A stretch of 64,000 bases of DNA, from NCBI RefSeq assembly GCF_900143185.1, contig NZ_FSRQ01000002.1:310001-374000 (forward strand). The letters are read 5' to 3'. The position numbers and the translations under genes are program-made. Source of the stretch: Chryseobacterium scophthalmum. GTDB lineage: Bacteria > Bacteroidota > Bacteroidia > Flavobacteriales > Weeksellaceae. A model generated the notes under the pieces. That model did no database searches, was not told where the DNA came from, and was given only the letters and a program-made list of their open reading frames with translations. Below are positions 43,336-52,426 of this stretch, piece after piece (the stretch's first letter is position 1; the number at the start of each line of letters is the position of its first letter).

Positions 43336-44262
43336 TTGATACCTTTACAAAAAATACCTTTGAAAGAGTATAAAAAACGAATGGTAAAAATCATTCAGTA
43401 CATAGATAACAATCTTGATACCGAACTTAGTTTAGAGATTGTTTCAGAAATAGGAACGTACTCTCCATTTCATTTTCATAGAATTTTCAAGCTAATTATG
43501 GGAGAAACATTACAGAGTTATATTTTTAGAAAAAGGATAGAAAAAAGTGCGTTTTATCTTTCATTAAGAAAGAGTTTATCAATAAAAGATATTTATTTGA
43601 ATGTTGGATTTTCCAGTCATTCAGATTTCAACAAGGCTTTTAAAAAATATTACGGAAGATCTCCTTCAGAATTTAGAAAGATCACTCCCGAAAAATTTCA
43701 TACGATCTCTCAGATACATCGCAAGAACGGACAAGTAGATACGGTTTTCGACCAATACATTAGCAATATAGAAAACCTATTAAACTGGTCAACAATGAAT
43801 TTAAAAATTAAAGTAACCGATTTGCCGGAAATGAATTTGGCGTCTGTAATGAGCCTTGGTATCGCAAATGTAGAATCGTCTTTCAACGTTCTTATAGATT
43901 GGGCAGAGGAAAAGCAATTGTTCCCCCTGGAAGATCTTAAAATGATCTCTGTATATCATGATAGTTTTAAAGTTACTTCGCCAGATAAAGTGAGAATTCA
44001 TGCTTGTATGCTCTTAAATAAATCATTAGAAAAACAGGATGGCGAAGTATTTCCTGAAACGCTGGAAGCCGGAAAATTTATCGTTGGAAGCGGTGAACTA
44101 ACGCTTGCCGAGTTTGAGCAATCTTGGGTGTCGTTATTTTTATGGATGAAAGAAAACGGCTATACAACCCGAAAAGCATTTCCTTTTGAAATTTATCATT
44201 CAAATTTTAAAGAACATCCTGAAGGTAAAATGTTGGTAGATTTTTGTATTCCAATAAATTGA
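43336..44262 (+). CDS. AraC family transcriptional regulator with GyrI-like domain
   Basis: A 308-residue regulator. The N-terminal AraC DNA-binding domain spans about 15-120 (IIQYIDNNLDTELSLEIVSE, then DIYLNVGFSSHSDFNKAFKKYYGRSPSEFRK). The C-terminal half (about 150-308) is a GyrI/effector-binding-like domain. The layout is that of SoxS/Rob-type multidrug or stress regulators. The start is uncertain: a TTG at 43336 gives the given length, while ATG at 43381 would begin MVKIIQYIDN. No ligand or target is evident. Confidence 0.88.
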   Translation: MIPLQKIPLKEYKKRMVKIIQYIDNNLDTELSLEIVSEIGTYSPFHFHRIFKLIMGETLQSYIFRKRIEKSAFYLSLRKSLSIKDIYLNVGFSSHSDFNKAFKKYYGRSPSEFRKITPEKFHTISQIHRKNGQVDTVFDQYISNIENLLNWSTMNLKIKVTDLPEMNLASVMSLGIANVESSFNVLIDWAEEKQLFPLEDLKMISVYHDSFKVTSPDKVRIHACMLLNKSLEKQDGEVFPETLEAGKFIVGSGELTLAEFEQSWVSLFLWMKENGYTTRKAFPFEIYHSNFKEHPEGKMLVDFCIPIN

Positions 44263-44378: not shown

Positions 44379-44449
44379 GCGATTCAGTTTCCAAATTCTA
44401 CAGCTCAGTAACAAAAAATTTAAAGACATTAAAATTCATCCTATTTTTG
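44379..44449 (+). promoter_or_regulatory. LytTR-type operator and -7 element of the TonB receptor gene
   Basis: Half-sites GCGATTCAG (44379-44387) and ACAGCTCAG (44400-44408) start 21 bp apart. TATTTTTG (44442-44449) starts 34 bp after the second half-site ends. The same layout recurs at 47922 and 50630. LytTR regulators bind paired 9-bp sites one 21-bp step apart. The receptor ATG is at 44468. Confidence 0.7.
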
Positions 44450-44467
44450 ATTCGAATTAAAACAGCT

Positions 44468-46690
44468 ATGAAAACAAAACTATTATTTCTCATCTCTTTT
44501 TTCTTATTTGCTCTGAGTTTTTCTCAGACAAAAATTACAGGAAAGGTGACTTTTAAAAATAAAGGAATAAGCCAGATCAATGTGACTTTAAAAGATACTT
44601 ACGACGGTGCAACAACAGATCCCGACGGGAATTTCTCTTTCGAAACTTCTGAAAAAGGTAATCATATCCTGACTTTTGTTCATCCGAAATACAATGAAAT
44701 TCAGAAACCGATTTTAATTGAAGATAAAGATGTTTCCGTAAATGCCGAATTAAAAGAACAGATCAACGAAATAGATGCGGTCGTGATTTCTGCAGGTTCT
44801 ATCGAAGCGAGCGACAGAAAAAGAGCAACTGCTTTATTGACGCCAATTGATATTTACACAACAGCAGGAGCCGATGGACAAATTTCTTCCGCTTTAACTT
44901 ATCTTCCCGGGGTTCAGAAAGTAGGGGAAACCGAAGGTTTATTCGTTCGTGGAGGAACAGGAACTGAAACCAAAATTTTTATGGATGGAAGTTTGATCAA
45001 CAATTATTTTTCCAGTTCGGTTCCCGGAATTGCTGGAAGAGACCGTTTTAACACGTCTCTTTTCAAAGGAAATATTTTTTCGAGCGGTGGATATTCTGCT
45101 TTGTACGGACAGGCTCTTTCCGGAGCTTTGATGCTCGAAAGTGTAGATCTTCCAGACCAGAGTTCTTATGATTTTGGGGTTTCTCCCATATTTTTAAGTG
45201 GAAGTTTCCAGAAATTAGGTGAAAATAAAAATCATTCTTATGGAGCAAGTTTAGGATATTCAAATTTAGGTTTGATGCAGGAAGTTTTTAATTTTAATAC
45301 TGATTTTATTGATGCTCCAAGAGGTTTTAATGGCGATGCAAATTTTAGGATCAAAACAAAAACCGGAGGATTTTTAAAATACTACGGAATGTTTGACACT
45401 AATAAAATGGGCGTAAAAACCGAAAGTTTAGAACCGGGATATGATTTTGCCTTGGTAAGATTAAAAGGTGAAAATACTTACCATAACTTGTCTTTCAAGC
45501 AAAAATTCGGGAAGTATCTTTTCAATACAAGTGCTTCGTATTCTTACAATCAGTCAGATTTAAACTTTTCTACGGAAACCAATCAAACTGAATCGGAGAA
45601 AACAGAATTATTAAATGATGGAAATTATATCAATTTTAAAGCAGTTATCGACAGAAAAATCAATAAAATAAGTGCTTTACGAGGAGGATTTGAATTGAAT
45701 TATGCCAATGAAAAATTAAATTTCGGAGAGGTTAATAAGAATTATCGTGATTTGATTTCTTCAGGTTTTTTGGAAACAGATTTAGGTTTCAGCAACAATT
45801 TATCAGCAAAAATTGGAGTAAGAGCCGAAAACTCTTCTTATCTGAATAAAAATAATTTGGCACCGCGTTTTGCTTTGGCTTATCGTTTAGCAAAAGACTG
45901 GACAACCTCTTTCGCTTACGGATTGTTTTTCCAAAATCCTGAAAGTAAATATATTAACTCATCTGCAAGTTTAGGTTTTCAAAAGTCACAGCATTACATT
46001 TTTCAGGTTCAAAGGTCAACAGAAGGAAGAAGCTTGAGATTTGAAGCTTTTTATAAAAAATATGATGAATTGATTAAAACTCAGAATATTGTTCCAGATT
46101 CTAATCAAAATCAGCAAGTGCAAACCGCTTTTAATAATAACGGAAATGGTTTCGCAAAAGGGCTTGAAGTATTTTGGAGAGACAAAAAAACGTTTGAAAA
46201 TATCGATTATTGGATCAGTTATTCTTTTTTGGATTCTAAAAGAGATTTCCTGAATTATCCAGTAAGTTTAAAGCCCAATTTTGCTGCTGAACATACGCTT
46301 TCCGTTGTTGCCAAAAGATTTATCCCCGAATGGAAGACCGGAGTCAATCTTTCTTACACTTATGCAAAAGGACGACCTTATTACGACATCGTGACACAAA
46401 ATGATGTAAATGTTATAAGAAATGAAGGAAGACTGAAAGATTACAACGCGCTGAATTTAAGCTTCAATTATCTGCCGAATATTGGTAAAAAAGACTCAAA
46501 AGCATTTACTATTTTCGTTCTAAGTATTTCAAATGTTTTAGGAAATAAAAACGTGTACGGATACAATTTTTCTCAAAACGGAAACCAAAGTTCCGCAGTC
46601 GTTCCGCCCGTCAATACATTTGTTTTTGTAGGAATGTTTATCAGTTTTGGGGTAGATAAAACGCAGGATGCGATCAATAATAACCTTTAA
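44468..46690 (+). CDS. TonB-dependent receptor with carboxypeptidase-like regulatory domain
   Basis: A 740-residue outer-membrane protein. A signal peptide (KTKLLFLISFFLFALSFSQ) is followed by an N-terminal CarboxypepD_reg-like domain (about 20-105, GKVTFKNKGISQINVTLKD), a plug (DRKRATALLTPIDIYTTAGADGQISSALTYLPGVQ) and a beta-barrel, without an obvious SusD partner next door. These receptors import substrates using TonB energy. The ligand is not predictable. ATG 44468 is preferred over TTG at 44447, which lies inside the promoter element. The LytTR-type operator suggests control by the two-component system downstream. Confidence 0.9.
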   Translation: MKTKLLFLISFFLFALSFSQTKITGKVTFKNKGISQINVTLKDTYDGATTDPDGNFSFETSEKGNHILTFVHPKYNEIQKPILIEDKDVSVNAELKEQINEIDAVVISAGSIEASDRKRATALLTPIDIYTTAGADGQISSALTYLPGVQKVGETEGLFVRGGTGTETKIFMDGSLINNYFSSSVPGIAGRDRFNTSLFKGNIFSSGGYSALYGQALSGALMLESVDLPDQSSYDFGVSPIFLSGSFQKLGENKNHSYGASLGYSNLGLMQEVFNFNTDFIDAPRGFNGDANFRIKTKTGGFLKYYGMFDTNKMGVKTESLEPGYDFALVRLKGENTYHNLSFKQKFGKYLFNTSASYSYNQSDLNFSTETNQTESEKTELLNDGNYINFKAVIDRKINKISALRGGFELNYANEKLNFGEVNKNYRDLISSGFLETDLGFSNNLSAKIGVRAENSSYLNKNNLAPRFALAYRLAKDWTTSFAYGLFFQNPESKYINSSASLGFQKSQHYIFQVQRSTEGRSLRFEAFYKKYDELIKTQNIVPDSNQNQQVQTAFNNNGNGFAKGLEVFWRDKKTFENIDYWISYSFLDSKRDFLNYPVSLKPNFAAEHTLSVVAKRFIPEWKTGVNLSYTYAKGRPYYDIVTQNDVNVIRNEGRLKDYNALNLSFNYLPNIGKKDSKAFTIFVLSISNVLGNKNVYGYNFSQNGNQSSAVVPPVNTFVFVGMFISFGVDKTQDAINNNL

Positions 46691-46700
46691 TAAAATTAAT

Positions 46701-46857
46701 TTAACGCAAAGTTTAACCTTCATAAACTTTATATTTAAGGGGCCAAGATGAATCAATAAATTGATTTTATAAAGCTCATAATTTCAAGCTTCATCAGAGA
46801 CATTATCGCCATTCTTTGCTCCTTTAAATAATACATTTGACATTAAAATCTTTGCGT
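46701..46857. repeat. MITE-like palindromic repeat, ACGCAAAG family, copy A
   Basis: Runs from TTAACGCAAAG to CTTTGCGT, 157 bp, with matching inner arms (an AAGGGGCCAAGATG-like left arm and CATTCTTTGCTCCTT right arm). It shares over 60% of positions with copies at 50.25 and 53.2 kb by eye. It begins 11 bp past the receptor stop codon. Confidence 0.7.
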
Positions 46858-46962
46858 CAAAAAGTATTTCGGATTTAATGATTTTAGCATTTTTAAAACA
46901 CGGATAATCATTTAGAAAAAATATCTTTAAATAAAAAAATAACATTAAACAATTTAGAAACT

Positions 46963-47610
46963 ATGAAAAAATACATTTTAAGTTTTGCTTTAGCTTGTAT
47001 GAGTTTATTATCTTTTGCTCAGGCTAATTATGAAAAAATAATGACAGAGAAAATTGCTAAAATTGAAACCTGCAAAACACCGGAAGATTTTCAGGTTCTG
47101 GCCAACGATTTTCAGAGAATTGCCGATAAGGAAACCACAAAATGGCTACCGAATTATTATGCTGCTTTTTCTTATATCCAAAAAGGAAGGGTATTGATGA
47201 GAGAAGGAAAAATGCAGGATATGGATATTGTTGCAGATCAGGCTCAAAAATTTATTGATGCTGCAGAAAGTATTGAAAAAGAAAATTCAGAGATTCATTT
47301 GCTTCAAAAAATGGTTTATTCACTGAAAATGATGGTCAATCCGCAGGAAAGATACATGACTTTTGGAATGAAAGCTCAGGAAGAACTTACGAAAGCTGAA
47401 AAATTTGATCCAGCTAATCCAAGAGTAACACTTATAAAAGCGGAAGATATTTACTTTACGCCGGAGCAATACGGAGGAAGCAAAACAAAAGGAATGGAAA
47501 TGTTTAAAGCTGCTTTAGAAAAATTCAATTCGTTTAAACCCAAAACCAATTTAAGTCCGAACTGGGGAAAAGGAGAAGCGGAATATTTTATTAATCAACC
47601 GACAAAGTAA
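46963..47610 (+). CDS. Exported TPR-like helical protein
   Basis: A 215-residue protein with a signal peptide (KKYILSFALACMSLLSFAQ) and a mature part of helices in TPR-like phasing (LPNYYAAFSYIQKGRVLMREG, then MTFGMKAQEELTKAEKFDPANPRVTLIKAEDIYF). I do not recognise a named family. It follows the TonB-dependent receptor with only a repeat element between, so it may read from the same LytTR-controlled transcript and act as a periplasmic partner. Its own promoter is not evident. Confidence 0.72.
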   Translation: MKKYILSFALACMSLLSFAQANYEKIMTEKIAKIETCKTPEDFQVLANDFQRIADKETTKWLPNYYAAFSYIQKGRVLMREGKMQDMDIVADQAQKFIDAAESIEKENSEIHLLQKMVYSLKMMVNPQERYMTFGMKAQEELTKAEKFDPANPRVTLIKAEDIYFTPEQYGGSKTKGMEMFKAALEKFNSFKPKTNLSPNWGKGEAEYFINQPTK

Positions 47611-47649
47611 TCGCTAATCTTCTAAATTAGAATTAAATGTCATATTTTT

Positions 47650-47722
47650 CTTGCAGATTTACAGATTAAGCAGATAAATAAAAGAGAAAAAATCTGCAAA
47701 ATTTGCCTAATCTGCGAGATAT
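47650..47722. repeat. Palindromic intergenic repeat, CACAGATTT family, copy 2
   Basis: The left arm TTGCAGATTTACAGATTAAG is partly complementary to the right arm at about 47691-47722 (AATCTGC...TAATCTGCGAGAT). Same family by content as 38864-38933 and 55165-55306, though diverged. Confidence 0.45.
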
Positions 47723-47730
47723 TAAATCAG

Positions 47731-47763
47731 CCCTTTCTGCATTTCAAATGTGGAAAGGGTTTT
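47731..47763 (+). terminator. Terminator after the exported TPR-like gene
   Basis: CCCTTTC (47731-47737) pairs with GAAAGGG (47753-47759), with an inner CATTT/AAATG pairing and a short T run after. It is about 120 bp past the stop codon. Confidence 0.6.
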
Positions 47764-47818
47764 AAAATTATAAAACGATTTGTATTACCAATTGTCATAT
47801 AATTAGAAATAAAGAGTC

Positions 47819-47876
47819 TTTGTCATGCTGTAAGCATCTCTAAAAAGTTAACTTAGATTCTTTCAGACTGACAAAC
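47819..47876. repeat. Palindromic intergenic repeat, TTTGTCAT family
   Basis: TTTGTCATGCTGTAAGCATC at the left pairs imperfectly with the right arm TTCTTTCAGACTGACAAAC. Recalls a common flavobacterial GTCATTCTGA...TCAGAATGAC repeat, here a diverged single copy. Confidence 0.4.
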
Positions 47877-47921
47877 ATGCTGTTTATGAGTTTAGATGTA
47901 TAAACAGATAAAATTATTATT

Positions 47922-47992
47922 ACCGTTCAGAACAGAAAAGCAACCATTCAGCGAGAAAAAGTTTTCACAGAGTTTAATAAAAGCTAATTTTG
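47922..47992 (+). promoter_or_regulatory. LytTR-type operator and -7 element of the 2TM histidine kinase gene
   Basis: Half-sites ACCGTTCAG (47922-47930, a full match to the LytTR 9-mer [TA][AC][CA]GTTN[AG][TG]) and ACCATTCAG (47943-47951, one mismatch) start 21 bp apart. TAATTTTG (47985-47992) starts 34 bp after the second ends. The kinase ATG is at 48009. Confidence 0.75.
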
Positions 47993-48008
47993 AACTATAA
48001 ATTAACCA

Positions 48009-49322
48009 ATGAAACGTAAGGATTTTATCATTTTATTTTGGGTGTCTTTGGCAACTACTCTGGTTTTCTTTTTCCTTTCTACGGAAGAAAAAAATCTTGA
48101 GAATTTCTCGCTTACTTTATTTATTTCAGCGATGTATTCTTTTGTAATAGGAATCGGAAATGACTTGATTAATAGTTTTCTCAACAAAAAAGTTCCTTGG
48201 TCTGAAGCAACAACCAAAAGAGCGATTTTAAGCATTGTTTCAATTCTTATTGCCAATTTTATTTTGGTGTATTTCTGCAACTATATCAACTTTGTGGTCA
48301 TTCAAAAAGTAGCTACAACAGAAGCATTTTTCTCAGGAAAATACAATTTTATCAATTGGTTTATGGTGAATGTTGCTTTGCTGATTTCTGCTTTTCTACA
48401 CGCTAAAAGTTTTATGGAGGAGCTTAAAAGATCTTCCAAAAAAGAAGTGGTTGAGCAGAAATTAATCGCAAAATCTGCCAATGCACAATTTGAAAGTTTA
48501 AAAAATCAGCTTGACCCACATTTTTTATTTAATTCATTAAATGTTTTAAGCTCGTTGATCGATGAAAACCCGAGTCAGGCTCAGAAGTTTACTGCCTCAA
48601 TGTCAAAGATCTACAGATACGTTTTGGAGCAGAAAGATAAAGAATTAGTGACTATTGAAGACGAAATAGAATTTGCAAAAACCTATTGTGGCTTACTGAA
48701 AACAAGATTTGAAGACAGTGTTAATTTTATTTTTGATGTAAAAGAAGACGATTTACGACGATTTGTAGTTCCTCTTTCTCTCCAATTGCTTTTGGAAAAT
48801 TGTATTAAACATAATTTGGCAACATCTTCAAAGCCTTTGCTGATCAGAATTTTTACGGAAGGCGACACTTTATGTATAGAAAATAACTTACAGATTCGGG
48901 AACAGATCAAAGAAAGTGCAGGAATAGGTTTGGCAAACATTGTACAACGCTATTCTTTACTGACGAAAAAGAATGTTTTTATAGAAAAATCTGAAGATTA
49001 TTTTAAAGTAAAACTTCCGATATTATCTGAAAAACCAAACACGGCAAGTATCGATACAAAAAATCAGGATAAAGCTTACGAAAGAGCCAAGAAAAGAGTA
49101 AAAGAGATCAAAGGTTTTTATGGTAATCTTATTTCTTACTGCACGGTTATTCCTTTCCTGATCTTTGTGAATCTGTATACTCAAAATCATTACTATTGGT
49201 TTTGGTGGCCGCTTTTAGGATGGGGTGTTGGTGTGGCTTCTCACGCATTTCAGGTATTTGGGATCGGGACATCTTGGCAGGAAAAAAAGATCCAGGAAAT
49301 TATGGATAAACAGAAAAAATAG
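48009..49322 (+). CDS. LytS-type histidine kinase with C-terminal 2TM domain
   Basis: A 437-residue membrane kinase. Four hydrophobic segments occupy about 5-130. The His_kinase (PF06580-type) core has the phospho-His in LDPHFLFNSL (about residue 170), the N-box LLLENCIKHNL and the G-box GIGLANIV. The last 80 residues are a 2TM domain (KRVKEIKGFYGNLISYC ... WPLLGWGVGVASHAFQVFGIG), nearly the same as the stand-alone 2TM protein at 50746. It probably phosphorylates the LytTR regulator encoded at 51683. The next genes follow at 5 and 1 bp. Confidence 0.9.
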   Translation: MKRKDFIILFWVSLATTLVFFFLSTEEKNLENFSLTLFISAMYSFVIGIGNDLINSFLNKKVPWSEATTKRAILSIVSILIANFILVYFCNYINFVVIQKVATTEAFFSGKYNFINWFMVNVALLISAFLHAKSFMEELKRSSKKEVVEQKLIAKSANAQFESLKNQLDPHFLFNSLNVLSSLIDENPSQAQKFTASMSKIYRYVLEQKDKELVTIEDEIEFAKTYCGLLKTRFEDSVNFIFDVKEDDLRRFVVPLSLQLLLENCIKHNLATSSKPLLIRIFTEGDTLCIENNLQIREQIKESAGIGLANIVQRYSLLTKKNVFIEKSEDYFKVKLPILSEKPNTASIDTKNQDKAYERAKKRVKEIKGFYGNLISYCTVIPFLIFVNLYTQNHYYWFWWPLLGWGVGVASHAFQVFGIGTSWQEKKIQEIMDKQKK

Positions 49323-49327
49323 AAATC

Positions 49328-49627
49328 ATGGAAAAATTTGACGAAAATGATATCAATTATCAGCAGGCGAAAAGACAGGTAGAAAGATTGAGAGGTTTCT
49401 ACGGACACTTATTTTCATACGTTGCTGTAAATCTTTTGATTGTTTATTATAATTACATCAATTTAAAACCAAATGAGAACTATTTTCAGTTTAAAAATTT
49501 CATTACGGCTGCATTTTGGGGAGTAGGTCTTTTGGCTCATGCATTATTTGTTTTTCTGCCCCGATTTAATTTTGCAAAAAAATGGGAAGAGAAGAAAATC
49601 AAAGAATTGATGGATAAAAATAAATAA
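49328..49627 (+). CDS. 2TM domain-containing protein
   Basis: A 99-residue two-span membrane protein: AKRQVERLRGFYGHLFSYVAVNLLIVYYNY, then WGVGLLAHALFVFLP and the charged end WEEKKIKELMDKNK. This is the same charged-helix, two-span, charged-helix layout as the kinase C-terminus. The family has no known biochemical function. It lies 5 bp after the kinase and 1 bp before the methyltransferase-like gene. Confidence 0.88.
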   Translation: MEKFDENDINYQQAKRQVERLRGFYGHLFSYVAVNLLIVYYNYINLKPNENYFQFKNFITAAFWGVGLLAHALFVFLPRFNFAKKWEEKKIKELMDKNK

Positions 49628-49628
49628 A

Positions 49629-50195
49629 ATGAATGCACTTTATCTGCTTTTTTACATTTCTATTGCTGCATGGTTTTTGAGCGAAATTTATTACAAGCAA
49701 AAATTTAAATCTGAATCGAAAGACCAAAAGAAAGATAAATCTACACTCAATATTTTGTGGGTGGTGATCATTCCGTCTGTTTTTGCGGCGGTAACGGTTT
49801 CTAAACTGACTTCTTTTCATATCAGAAACCAATATTGGATTTTATATTTAGGTGAATTTTTAATTGTGATTGGGATTGTTTTTCGTTGGATAATCATTAA
49901 ATCTCTCGGAAGATTTTTCGCGGTAGATGTTTCGATTAGAGAAAATCATCAGATCAAAAAAGAAGGATCTTACAGATTGGTAAGGCATCCTTCTTATTCG
50001 TTTGCGCTTCTTACGTTCTTGGGTTTAGGATTATTTCTAAATAACTGGCTCTCTCTGTTTATTGCTCTTGTGCCTGTATTTTTAGCATTTTCGTATCGAA
50101 TTAAAGTTGAAGAACAGGTTTTGATACAACAATTTGGAAACGAATATTTGGAATATAAGCGGAAAACAAAAAAGCTGATTCCGTTTATTTATTAA
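49629..50195 (+). CDS. Isoprenylcysteine carboxylmethyltransferase-family membrane protein
   Basis: A 188-residue integral membrane protein of the ICMT/PEMT methyltransferase family, with hydrophobic segments at about 1-15, 40-55, 75-95 and 130-160. The SAM-binding region is KKEGSYRLVRHPSYSFALLTFLG, followed by the conserved C-terminal VEEQVLIQQFGNEYLEYKRKT. Bacterial members methylate membrane-associated substrates, mostly unidentified. It sits in the kinase/2TM operon and so may modify a component of that system; this is inference from position. Confidence 0.85.
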   Translation: MNALYLLFYISIAAWFLSEIYYKQKFKSESKDQKKDKSTLNILWVVIIPSVFAAVTVSKLTSFHIRNQYWILYLGEFLIVIGIVFRWIIIKSLGRFFAVDVSIRENHQIKKEGSYRLVRHPSYSFALLTFLGLGLFLNNWLSLFIALVPVFLAFSYRIKVEEQVLIQQFGNEYLEYKRKTKKLIPFIY

Positions 50196-50251
50196 TCTCA
50201 ATGTAGATTAAATAATAAGTATAAGTGATTTATTATAAGTGTTTTATCTGT

Positions 50252-50416
50252 TTAACGCAAAGTTTGATTTTCATAAACTTTATTTTTAAGGAGCAAAGAT
50301 GAATCAATAAATTGATTTTTATGAAGTTTTCGTTTTATTCAAGCTTCATCAGCGACTTTGTCGCCATTCTTTGCTCCTTAAAATATTAAGTTTAAGAATT
50401 AAAATCTTTGCGTGTT
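50252..50416. repeat. MITE-like palindromic repeat, ACGCAAAG family, copy B
   Basis: The longest copy. It runs from TTAACGCAAAG to CTTTGCGT (50254-50413). The left half aligns with the reverse complement of the right half across nearly its whole length, with inner arms AAGGAGCAAAGA (50288-50299) and TCTTTGCTCCTT, and ATGAAG/CTTCAT near the centre. Such a transcript would fold into one long hairpin. The stretch from 50417 to 50597 shows no recognisable feature. Confidence 0.75.
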
Positions 50417-50597
50417 AAAGATTTAACTCATTTTTTTATCCTCACAAAAAAGACAAAGATTTTACCGAGTTATAAGTTATTCAAATGCTGGCAAAAAGAG
50501 AAATGAAAGCTCTGTCTTTTATGAACTTTTGAAATGCTCTTTTTTCAATCATTTCTTTTGCCCCTTTTGCTGTTAAAAAAACTTTAACACATAAAAT

Positions 50598-50628
50598 AAA
50601 ATCCCGATTTCAGTTGAGTCGGGATTTT
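50598..50628 (+). terminator. Hairpin terminator upstream of the 2TM operon
   Basis: A 10-bp stem (AAAATCCCGA at 50598-50607, TCGGGATTTT at 50619-50628) with an 11-nt loop and a T run. It ends two bases before the first half-site of the next operator, so it insulates the 2TM operon from upstream transcription. Confidence 0.8.
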
Positions 50629-50629
50629 T

Positions 50630-50701
50630 GCTGTTCAGTCTATATTTTCCACAGTTCAGTAATATAAAGTTGATTTGAGGTTGATTCTTGACCTAAATTT
50701 G
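50630..50701 (+). promoter_or_regulatory. LytTR-type operator and -7 element of the 2TM/LytTR operon
   Basis: Half-sites GCTGTTCAG (50630-50638) and ACAGTTCAG (50651-50659, a full match to the LytTR 9-mer) start 21 bp apart. TAAATTTG (50694-50701) starts 35 bp after the second ends. The first gene begins at 50746, and the operon ends in the LytTR regulator itself, so autoregulation is likely. Confidence 0.78.
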
Positions 50702-50745: not shown

Positions 50746-51042
50746 ATGGAAAATTTATCATTAAACAAAGAAAATTTAGCGTACAGAAAAGCAGCAAGAC
50801 GAGTAAAAGATTTAAAAGGGTTTTACGGTAACCTTACTTCTTATTGCTTGGTTATTCCTTTTTTATTGATTTTAAATCTTATGACGGCACCGAATCATCT
50901 ATGGTTTTATTGGCCAATGTTAGGTTGGGGATTGGGTCTTGCTTTACACGCTGTAAGTACTTTTGGAATCGGGAAAAACTGGGAAGAGAAAAAAATAAAA
51001 GAATTGATGGAGGAGGAGCAACAAAGAAGCATGCGTAAATAA
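50746..51042 (+). CDS. 2TM domain-containing protein
   Basis: A 98-residue two-span protein. Its core (RRVKDLKGFYGNLTSYCLVI, then WPMLGWGLGLALHAVSTFGIG) is closely similar to the kinase's C-terminal domain, and the end WEEKKIKELMEEEQ is typical. It is first in the operon under the 50630 operator and 6 bp before the next 2TM gene. A role as kinase-interaction or membrane-scaffold partner is inferred from shared sequence. Confidence 0.88.
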   Translation: MENLSLNKENLAYRKAARRVKDLKGFYGNLTSYCLVIPFLLILNLMTAPNHLWFYWPMLGWGLGLALHAVSTFGIGKNWEEKKIKELMEEEQQRSMRK

Positions 51043-51048
51043 TCAGCA

Positions 51049-51333
51049 ATGGAAAATAATCTTCAAAAGCAGCAATATAAGTCAGCCAAAAGCAGAATGA
51101 AAGAAATAAAAACATTCTACATTATGCTCACCGGATGTTTTTTGCTCACGCCTTATTTGATTTTTATCAACCTGAAAGTAAATCCTGAATTGCATTGGTT
51201 TTGGTTTCCGTTATTCGGTTTTGGAATAAGCATTCTGGGTTACGCATTTTATCTTTTTACGGGTAAAAACTGGGAAGAGAAGAAAATAAAACAATTGATG
51301 GAGCGTGAGAGAGGAAATTCAAAATCACTTTAA
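51049..51333 (+). CDS. 2TM domain-containing protein
   Basis: A 94-residue two-span protein (KSRMKEIKTFYIMLTGCFLLTPYLIFIN, then WFPLFGFGISILGYAFYLFTG), more diverged from the kinase domain but with the same WEEKKIKQLMERE end. Second 2TM gene of the operon, 26 bp before the third. Confidence 0.87.
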   Translation: MENNLQKQQYKSAKSRMKEIKTFYIMLTGCFLLTPYLIFINLKVNPELHWFWFPLFGFGISILGYAFYLFTGKNWEEKKIKQLMERERGNSKSL

Positions 51334-51359
51334 ATAATTATTATTAAAAAATTAATACA

Positions 51360-51632
51360 ATGGATTATAATAGCGCACAGCAAAAAGTAAAAAGGCTGAG
51401 GTCATTCTATAAAAACTGCATGTGGTTTACGATCGTTGCCGGATTTATTCTGATCAAAAATTTTATTAAATATTCTGGAACAGACCACAATTTTCAAGGA
51501 TGGTTTATTCTTACGATTTGGGCAATAATTTTAGGAGTGAAAGCTGTAAATCTTTTTATATTTGATTCTGAATGGGAAAATCAGATCCTGGAAGAAGAAC
51601 TTAAGAAGTCGAAAAAACCAATTAATTTTTAA
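51360..51632 (+). CDS. 2TM domain-containing protein
   Basis: A 90-residue two-span protein, the most diverged of the three (QQKVKRLRSFYKNCMWFTIVAGFILIKNFI, then GWFILTIWAIILGVKAVNLFIF), still ending in a charged segment (WENQILEEELKKSKK). It precedes the LytTR regulator by 50 bp in the same operon. Confidence 0.85.
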   Translation: MDYNSAQQKVKRLRSFYKNCMWFTIVAGFILIKNFIKYSGTDHNFQGWFILTIWAIILGVKAVNLFIFDSEWENQILEEELKKSKKPINF

Positions 51633-51682: not shown

Positions 51683-52426
51683 ATGATTAAAACAGTCATC
51701 ATCGAAGACGAAAAACCTGCAGCAAGAAAATTAGAAAGAATGTTGAGTCTTTTTCCTGATTTGCAATTGGTTGCCAACCTGGAATCTGTGGAAGAAGCAG
51801 TAAGCTGGTTTGCCGAAAATGAGCATCCGCAACTTATCTTTTCAGACATCGTTTTAGGAGACGGTCTTTCGTTTGATATTTTTGAAAAAATCTCTACAAA
51901 AGCTTTTATTATTTATACCACGGCTTTTGATCAATACACGTTGAAGGCTTTTAAACTCAACAGTATCGATTATCTTTTGAAACCCATTATGGAAGAAGAT
52001 CTCGCCGGAGCGATTGAAAAATTCAAATCATTTATTCCTTCAGATAAATCGGTTAACTCACAAGAGATTAAGCAATTAATTAAAAAAGAAAAAACGACAC
52101 TGTCGAGGATTTTGGTAAAGATCGGTTATAATCTGAAGATTGTACAGACCCCCGAGATCAGCTGTTTTTTTAGTGAAAATAAAATTGTTTATCTGCAGAC
52201 TCAGGATCGGGTTTATCCTTCAGAATTTACTTTAGATGAATTAACGGATGTGCTTGATGATAAGAAGTTTTTCCGTGTCAACAGGCAGTTTATTATCAAT
52301 TCAGATTATATTAAAAATATTCATACGTCGCCCAATTATAAAGTGGAACTCAATTTTCAACCAAAAGAAGAAATTACGGTGAGCCGTGAAAGGGTAAAAG
52401 ATTTTAAAGACTGGTTGGTTAATTAA
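51683..52426 (+). CDS. LytTR family response regulator
   Basis: A 247-residue two-domain regulator. The receiver has acidic pair IIEDEKPAARK, phospho-Asp55 in LIFSDIVLGDG, and KP in DYLLKPI. The C-terminal LytTR domain begins near residue 135 and includes FFRVNRQFIINSDYIKNIHTSPNYKVEL and EITVSRERVKDFKDW. LytTR domains bind paired 9-bp direct repeats; three such pairs are seen in this window, including one ahead of its own operon. Its kinase is probably the 2TM LytS-like protein at 48009. Confidence 0.93.
   Translation: MIKTVIIEDEKPAARKLERMLSLFPDLQLVANLESVEEAVSWFAENEHPQLIFSDIVLGDGLSFDIFEKISTKAFIIYTTAFDQYTLKAFKLNSIDYLLKPIMEEDLAGAIEKFKSFIPSDKSVNSQEIKQLIKKEKTTLSRILVKIGYNLKIVQTPEISCFFSENKIVYLQTQDRVYPSEFTLDELTDVLDDKKFFRVNRQFIINSDYIKNIHTSPNYKVELNFQPKEEITVSRERVKDFKDWLVN

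Follow-up and report, generated by a model that had tools for sequence, protein, structure and literature searches.

In the LytTR regulatory systems (LRS) of the HdrRM/BrsRM type, described in Streptococcus mutans and other bacteria, a LytTR regulator is paired with a membrane inhibitor, and the autoregulated operon carries a pair of 9-bp direct repeats, usually separated by 12 bp (9-12-9) and most commonly lying 10 bp upstream of the −35 box (PMC6193735). The LRS-like operons of Bacteroides have 11-bp repeats with 11 bp between them, 11 bp above the sequence TGTA-19 bp-TATCTTTG, which places them 34 bp before the −7 box (PMC6193735). AgrA of Staphylococcus aureus occupies two direct repeats as a dimer, upstream of promoters with suboptimal spacing, and these repeats are centred near −60 (PMC4227749). 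The BtsS/BtsR and YpdA/YpdB systems of enterobacteria each join a LytS-type kinase and a LytTR regulator to a transporter target (PMC5552118). Here we report a probable LytTR two-component regulon of Chryseobacterium scophthalmum (assembly GCF_900143185.1, 4.47 Mb in 9 contigs). It was found in a 64,000-nucleotide stretch of contig NZ_FSRQ01000002.1 (positions 310,001 to 374,000, hereafter the window), which encodes a TonB-dependent receptor, a LytS-type histidine kinase, several 2TM proteins and a LytTR response regulator.

Like the LRS, this system has direct 9-12-9 repeats at the promoters of its own operons, namely those of the kinase and of the 2TM proteins with the regulator, and a third such operator lies upstream of the receptor promoter. 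The distance from the repeats to the −7 box, 33–34 bp, is close to that in Bacteroides, but the repeats there differ in length and spacing. In place of a regulator with a membrane inhibitor, there are a receiver-LytTR protein, a kinase with a His_kinase domain, several 2TM proteins and an unlinked target. The kinase and regulator types are those of BtsS/BtsR and YpdA/YpdB, but the target here is a TonB receptor, and no pyruvate link is known; the BtsR equivalog NF008677 is the best NCBIfam equivalog of the regulator, at 108.1 bits against a cut-off of 246. AgrA differs in phylum, sensor and targets. Our analysis points to an autoregulated LytTR two-component regulon, in which four promoters would be activated from the known LytTR activator geometry, and we place the probability of this at about 0.82.

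The original prediction was that three promoters of the window share one operator geometry. Direct reading of the sequence confirmed the three half-site pairs, each with a step of 21 bp from start to start. The operators are also recovered by the profile searches and in the relatives described below.

44379..44408, + strand: operator of the TonB receptor gene, half-sites GCGATTCAG-N12-ACAGCTCAG starting at 44379 and 44400
44442..44449, + strand: −7 element of the receptor promoter, TATTTTTG, 33 bp past half-site 2
47922..47951, + strand: operator of the histidine kinase operon, half-sites ACCGTTCAG-N12-ACCATTCAG starting at 47922 and 47943
47985..47992, + strand: −7 element of the kinase promoter, TAATTTTG, 33 bp past half-site 2
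50630..50659, + strand: operator of the 2TM/LytTR operon, half-sites GCTGTTCAG-N12-ACAGTTCAG starting at 50630 and 50651
50694..50701, + strand: −7 element of the 2TM/LytTR promoter, TAAATTTG, 34 bp past half-site 2

A TAnnTTTG element follows each second half-site as predicted, although the spacings given for it (34, 34 and 35) each count one base too many, the bases between being 33, 33 and 34. As predicted, two of the six 9-mers fully fit [TA][AC][CA]GTTN[AG][TG], cited in the prediction as the published LytTR 9-mer pattern. The 21-bp step had been called the known geometry of LytTR dimers, and this agrees with the 9-12-9 repeats in PMC6193735.

The window holds three matches to the pattern TCAG-N17-TCAG-N33/34-TAnnTTTG, while 100 dinucleotide shuffles hold none; chance agreement of the three promoters is unlikely, as predicted. 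The pair alone is not specific: YTCAG-N16-YTCAG without the box has eight matches in the window (shuffle mean 0.45), and four of the five matches other than the three promoters lie within reading frames. Genome-wide, RYTCAG-N15-RYTCAG gave 29 matches, 25 of them in frames open for at least 150 codons (the receptor promoter among these), and the pair was therefore not accepted as a criterion across the genome unless the −7 box accompanied it. TAnnTTTG stands 33–34 bp on in four of the 29, which are the three window promoters and one further site, G000:C1:2211466 (G000 being the host genome). When spacing and gap were left free, 96 genome matches were spread over 675 spacing/gap cells, while a reversed control pattern had 12. 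The two cells of the operator geometry held five matches against 0.28 expected, namely four promoters and one match on contig C6 (Poisson P about 1e-5 for five matches and 2e-4 for four). These counts, together with the profile searches below, place the pair with its box above random frequency in the genome.

The fourth promoter was also recovered by R1, a 75-position profile made from 72 of 213 collected promoters, all from named Chryseobacterium loci and with the hydrolase site not included. In the host genome R1 matched the three window promoters (E of 7.9e-13, 2.9e-12 and 1.2e-10) and a fourth site, G000:C1:2211463 (E of 1.1e-4), the next match having an E of 0.036. With this site the regulon of the host genome exceeds the three proposed members by one promoter. 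This fourth site lies upstream of an unlinked gene for an alpha/beta-hydrolase of 265 amino acids. The gene is present in 20 of 60 sampled genomes of the genus, and in all 20 it is preceded by a pair scoring at least 14/16 with the box at 33 bp, at protein identities down to 52%. R2, a more diverse profile of 79 sites whose training set includes the hydrolase site (one chance match in locus L236 was left out), again placed four sites above noise in the host genome, with the next at 0.0044. R1 matches were found in all 60 sampled genus genomes (best E at most 3.1e-9 in each), as expected since R1 was built from loci of the genus. The hydrolase is apparently secreted, since its N-terminus, judged by eye, resembles a signal peptide. 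Its best PDB sequence matches are the alpha/beta-hydrolase domains of two "RTX toxin" entries, followed by lipases, peptidases and esterases; these matches, 44 sequences in total, are all weak, and we claim neither a reaction nor a toxin role.

The genes of the locus are as follows.

43336..44262: AraC/GyrI-type regulator gene, before the receptor gene and beside it in many of the fetched loci
44468..46690, + strand: TonB-dependent receptor of 740 amino acids, with CarbopepD_reg_2 and Plug domains
46963..47610, + strand: protein of 215 amino acids (H215), with no Pfam or NCBIfam match
48009..49322, + strand: LytS-type histidine kinase, PF06580 (86.6 bits) and a C-terminal 2TM domain, PF13239
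49328..49627, + strand: 2TM protein
49629..50195, + strand: ICMT/PEMT-like membrane methyltransferase
50746..51632, + strand: three consecutive 2TM proteins (50746–51042, 51049–51333 and 51360–51632)
51683..52426, + strand: response regulator with receiver and LytTR domains, the presumed operator binder

The regulator predicted at 51683 carries PF00072 (40.9 bits) and PF04397 (78.5 bits), both above cut-off, and is 99% identical to a protein of Chryseobacterium sp. YIM B08800 and 98% identical to one of C. balustinum. The receptor, like H215, had no NCBIfam match, and no PDB relative of the receptor was found at E ≤ 0.001.

A search with the regulator gave 142 relatives, of which we compared the best 80, 78 of them titled Chryseobacterium (including five metagenome-assembled genomes) and two being Weeksellaceae metagenome-assembled genomes. 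The gene order SodC, AraC, TonB receptor, H215, kinase, 2TM, ICMT, 2TM genes and regulator is largely kept. The LytTR regulator has a genetically linked LytS-type kinase in 74 of the 80 loci; no kinase was found in the other six, at least two of which are truncated by the end of the contig. Promoters were scored for an ACNRYTCRG pair of at least 13/16 at 21 bp with TAnnTTTG 33–34 bp on; we loosened this consensus once a first scan had been made, and the resulting figures are therefore descriptive. As the prediction required, the orthologous promoters keep pair and box, in 70/72 loci for the receptor, 64/74 for the kinase and 78/79 for the 2TM/LytTR operon, as against 0/618 (1/618 at 11/16) for ten further upstream regions taken from these loci. 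With the tighter first consensus the values were 41/72, 27/74 and 74/79, and 0/618 for the other upstream regions. Shifting the gap by 2 to 6 bp left 0 or 1 match in the three promoters. At 14/16 or more and with no box needed, other spacings reached at most 10/72, 1/74 and 21/79, compared with 43, 28 and 74 at 21 bp. All three promoters carry the arrangement in 61 of the 72 loci that have all three genes (bar of 11/16, gap 32–35). H215 has no paired site directly upstream in Chryseobacterium (0/73 at 13/16 or more). The invariant positions fall in the half-sites and the −7 box, and most other positions vary.

Some of these operators adjoin inverted repeats. Among 70 receptor promoters there are 33 in which an inverted copy of half-site 2 (for example GCCTTTC), matching at 6 of 7 bases or better, stands at one fixed distance, and 16 of these copies are perfect; locus L099 is one example, and the stop codon of the AraC gene directly precedes half-site 1 in L061 and L108. 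A terminator arm may double as operator in receptor promoters such as the latter two. The inverted repeat of a half-site is nearly absent elsewhere, at the same bar, with 0/65 kinase promoters and 2/78 2TM promoters. At the 2TM/regulator promoter of the window, a terminator-like inverted repeat with a T run (50600–50629) adjoins half-site 1, and the T run immediately before this half-site is conserved.

In Flavobacterium, housekeeping promoters have their −7 box at −12 to −5 (PMC9723704). If the box here is placed likewise, half-site 1 would cover −75 to −67 and half-site 2 −54 to −46, with the centre at −60.5, and in the promoter with the 34-bp gap the operator would lie one base further upstream. 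Only the 2TM promoter class conserves a TTG, located 21 bp upstream of the box; the receptor and kinase classes are T-rich there. The direction of control is not revealed by the operator alone, and the regulator might repress these promoters, as AgrA can when its site lies beyond the bsaA promoter on the downstream side (PMC4227749). We regard repression as improbable, because the operators, at about −75 to −46, lie upstream of the core promoter at one fixed distance, as for contact with polymerase, and because the −33 region shows no conserved TTG in two of the three classes, which suggests dependence on an activator.

The arrangement was also found outside the genus. Kinase identity is 67–72% for two further genera of the family and 40–51% for a second family of the order, presumably the Flavobacteriaceae. 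In the first of these genera the receptor, H215 and hydrolase genes are at least 42 kb from the kinase; in the second, receptor and H215 are near the kinase on the opposite strand; in two genomes of the second family they are far from the kinase or on a different contig. Such relocated targets carry the pair before the hydrolase in L268 and L269, and before the receptor and/or H215 in L270, L271, L273, L274, L275 and L283. In L278 and L281 the pair precedes the receptor and the gene before H215, with no box at 30–36 bp. H215 has its own paired site in the other genera and the second family, and complete second-family loci have H215, the kinase, the 2TM genes and the regulator in a single series that starts with the operator ahead of H215. 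Two details of these loci were also seen. In L278 (4177–4605) and L281 (3953–4396) a DUF2141 gene with its own half-site pair lies between receptor and H215 (the domain scan covered L278, and the L281 gene is alike by eye). In genome G175 (L270, 6477–6701) the receptor was found in the sequence compared only as an N-terminal frame of 74 amino acids, yet the operator before it is intact.

The expectation that the sites would follow the kinase across genomes held in the order and the family samples. Among genomes of the order, an R1 match (E ≤ 1e-3) was found in 32 of 38 with the kinase (E ≤ 1e-90) versus 2 of 110 without it (nominal Fisher P of 5e-24); without the genus of the window, 19 of 25 kinase-bearing genomes had a match, and in the second family 12 of 18. 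In the family sample, R2 (E ≤ 1e-4) matched 20 of 24 genomes with the kinase (E ≤ 1e-60) versus 1 of 16 without it, the latter only 56% complete (nominal Fisher P of 1.6e-6); at least 4 of the 20 positive genomes are not independent, since R2 was built in part from sites in G000, G136 and G113 and from one that is the same as a G152 site. In the phylum sample the kinase (E ≤ 1e-75) occurs in 20 of 198 genomes, all 20 from the order of the window. R1 matches at G056:C314, G071 and G117 were taken as noise, as the inspected stretches hold no pair of the set quality.

The genome encodes ten LytTR domains, and the operators, though real, could be bound by one of the nine other LytTR-domain proteins or by a non-LytTR factor, the neighbouring regulator having other targets. 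We regard this as improbable too, as the kinase and regulator operons are themselves under two of the four operators, the sites follow the presence of this kinase, and no further site of the genome is above noise, hence none before another LytTR gene. That the repeats persist through common descent of largely syntenic loci, or as pieces of elements such as terminators (half-site 2 being an inverted-repeat arm in the 33 receptor promoters), with no regulator binding, is very improbable: invariance is concentrated in half-sites and box, unlinked hydrolase, receptor and H215 genes of other genera carry the same arrangement, and the kinase and 2TM promoters are nearly without such a repeat.

Several observations weigh against an activated regulon under the 51683 regulator. 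A paralogue among the ten LytTR proteins could be the binder. Conservation is lowest at the kinase promoter, which falls below 13/16 in 10 of 74 loci and below 11/16 in 9. Loose spacing controls (at least 11/16) are nonzero in the three promoters, up to 48/79 at 17 bp, since one good half-site with a chance partner clears a low bar. The match on contig C6 (G000:C6:16630-16696, TCAG-N17-TCAG-N34-TAnnTTTG) has AATCAG as its second half-site, so that it is not RYTCAG, and it is absent from the listed matches of both profiles; as a further match in the geometry cells it slightly lowers our confidence. Among 15 second-family loci (L224–L238), 8 have pair and box, 4 the pair without the box and 3 neither; 6 of the 18 kinase-bearing genomes of that family have no R1 match at E ≤ 1e-3, and two kinase-less genomes of the order sample have one. 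Because consensus and thresholds were set or relaxed with the data in view, and because the genomes are relatives of one another, the P values exaggerate independence.

For the two-component regulon we propose the following course. On its signal, the kinase (48009) would phosphorylate the LytTR regulator (51683), a dimer of which would bind the ACNRYTCRG half-sites, 9 bp long, 21 bp apart and centred near −60, on one face of the DNA. A step of 21 bp is two turns of DNA. The bound regulator would then recruit polymerase to promoters with the housekeeping −7 box TAnnTTTG. Its targets would be the TonB receptor gene, the kinase operon, the 2TM/regulator operon and the unlinked alpha/beta-hydrolase gene. 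Two of these four promoters make the system itself, which would give positive feedback through the 2TM/regulator operon. More speculatively, the 2TM domain might be the adjustable component: the four free 2TM proteins, made from two regulon promoters in amounts that scale with the activity of the regulator, might pair with the 2TM tail of the kinase and damp or tune it, much as the membrane inhibitors of LRS act, so that the circuit would sense the success of receptor and hydrolase; we consider this doubtful.

Our literature searches, made mostly in open-licence papers, found no prior description of a flavobacterial LytTR operator or regulon. Nothing on this system was found in the accessible text of PMC11237479 or PMC9723704, and LytTR is absent from the main text of the latter. 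The LytTR/kinase pair FJOH_RS09515/09520 of Flavobacterium johnsoniae was mutated in coevolution lines (PMC10197871); it has neighbouring locus tags, as opposed to the 2TM genes between kinase and regulator here, and a link to it was set aside and not used. As far as the accessible literature goes, the kind of system and its geometry are known, and what is new lies in its members, its targets and the setting of its promoters.

These results define the operator in its geometry, targets and distribution across two families well enough for immediate testing, and they connect an uncharacterised kinase/2TM/LytTR cassette with a single TonB receptor and a single hydrolase. After identification of the signal, the promoters could serve as inducible promoters in these bacteria. 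If damping by 2TM proteins is true, it would join kinase-based and kinase-free LytTR systems through one design of membrane feedback.

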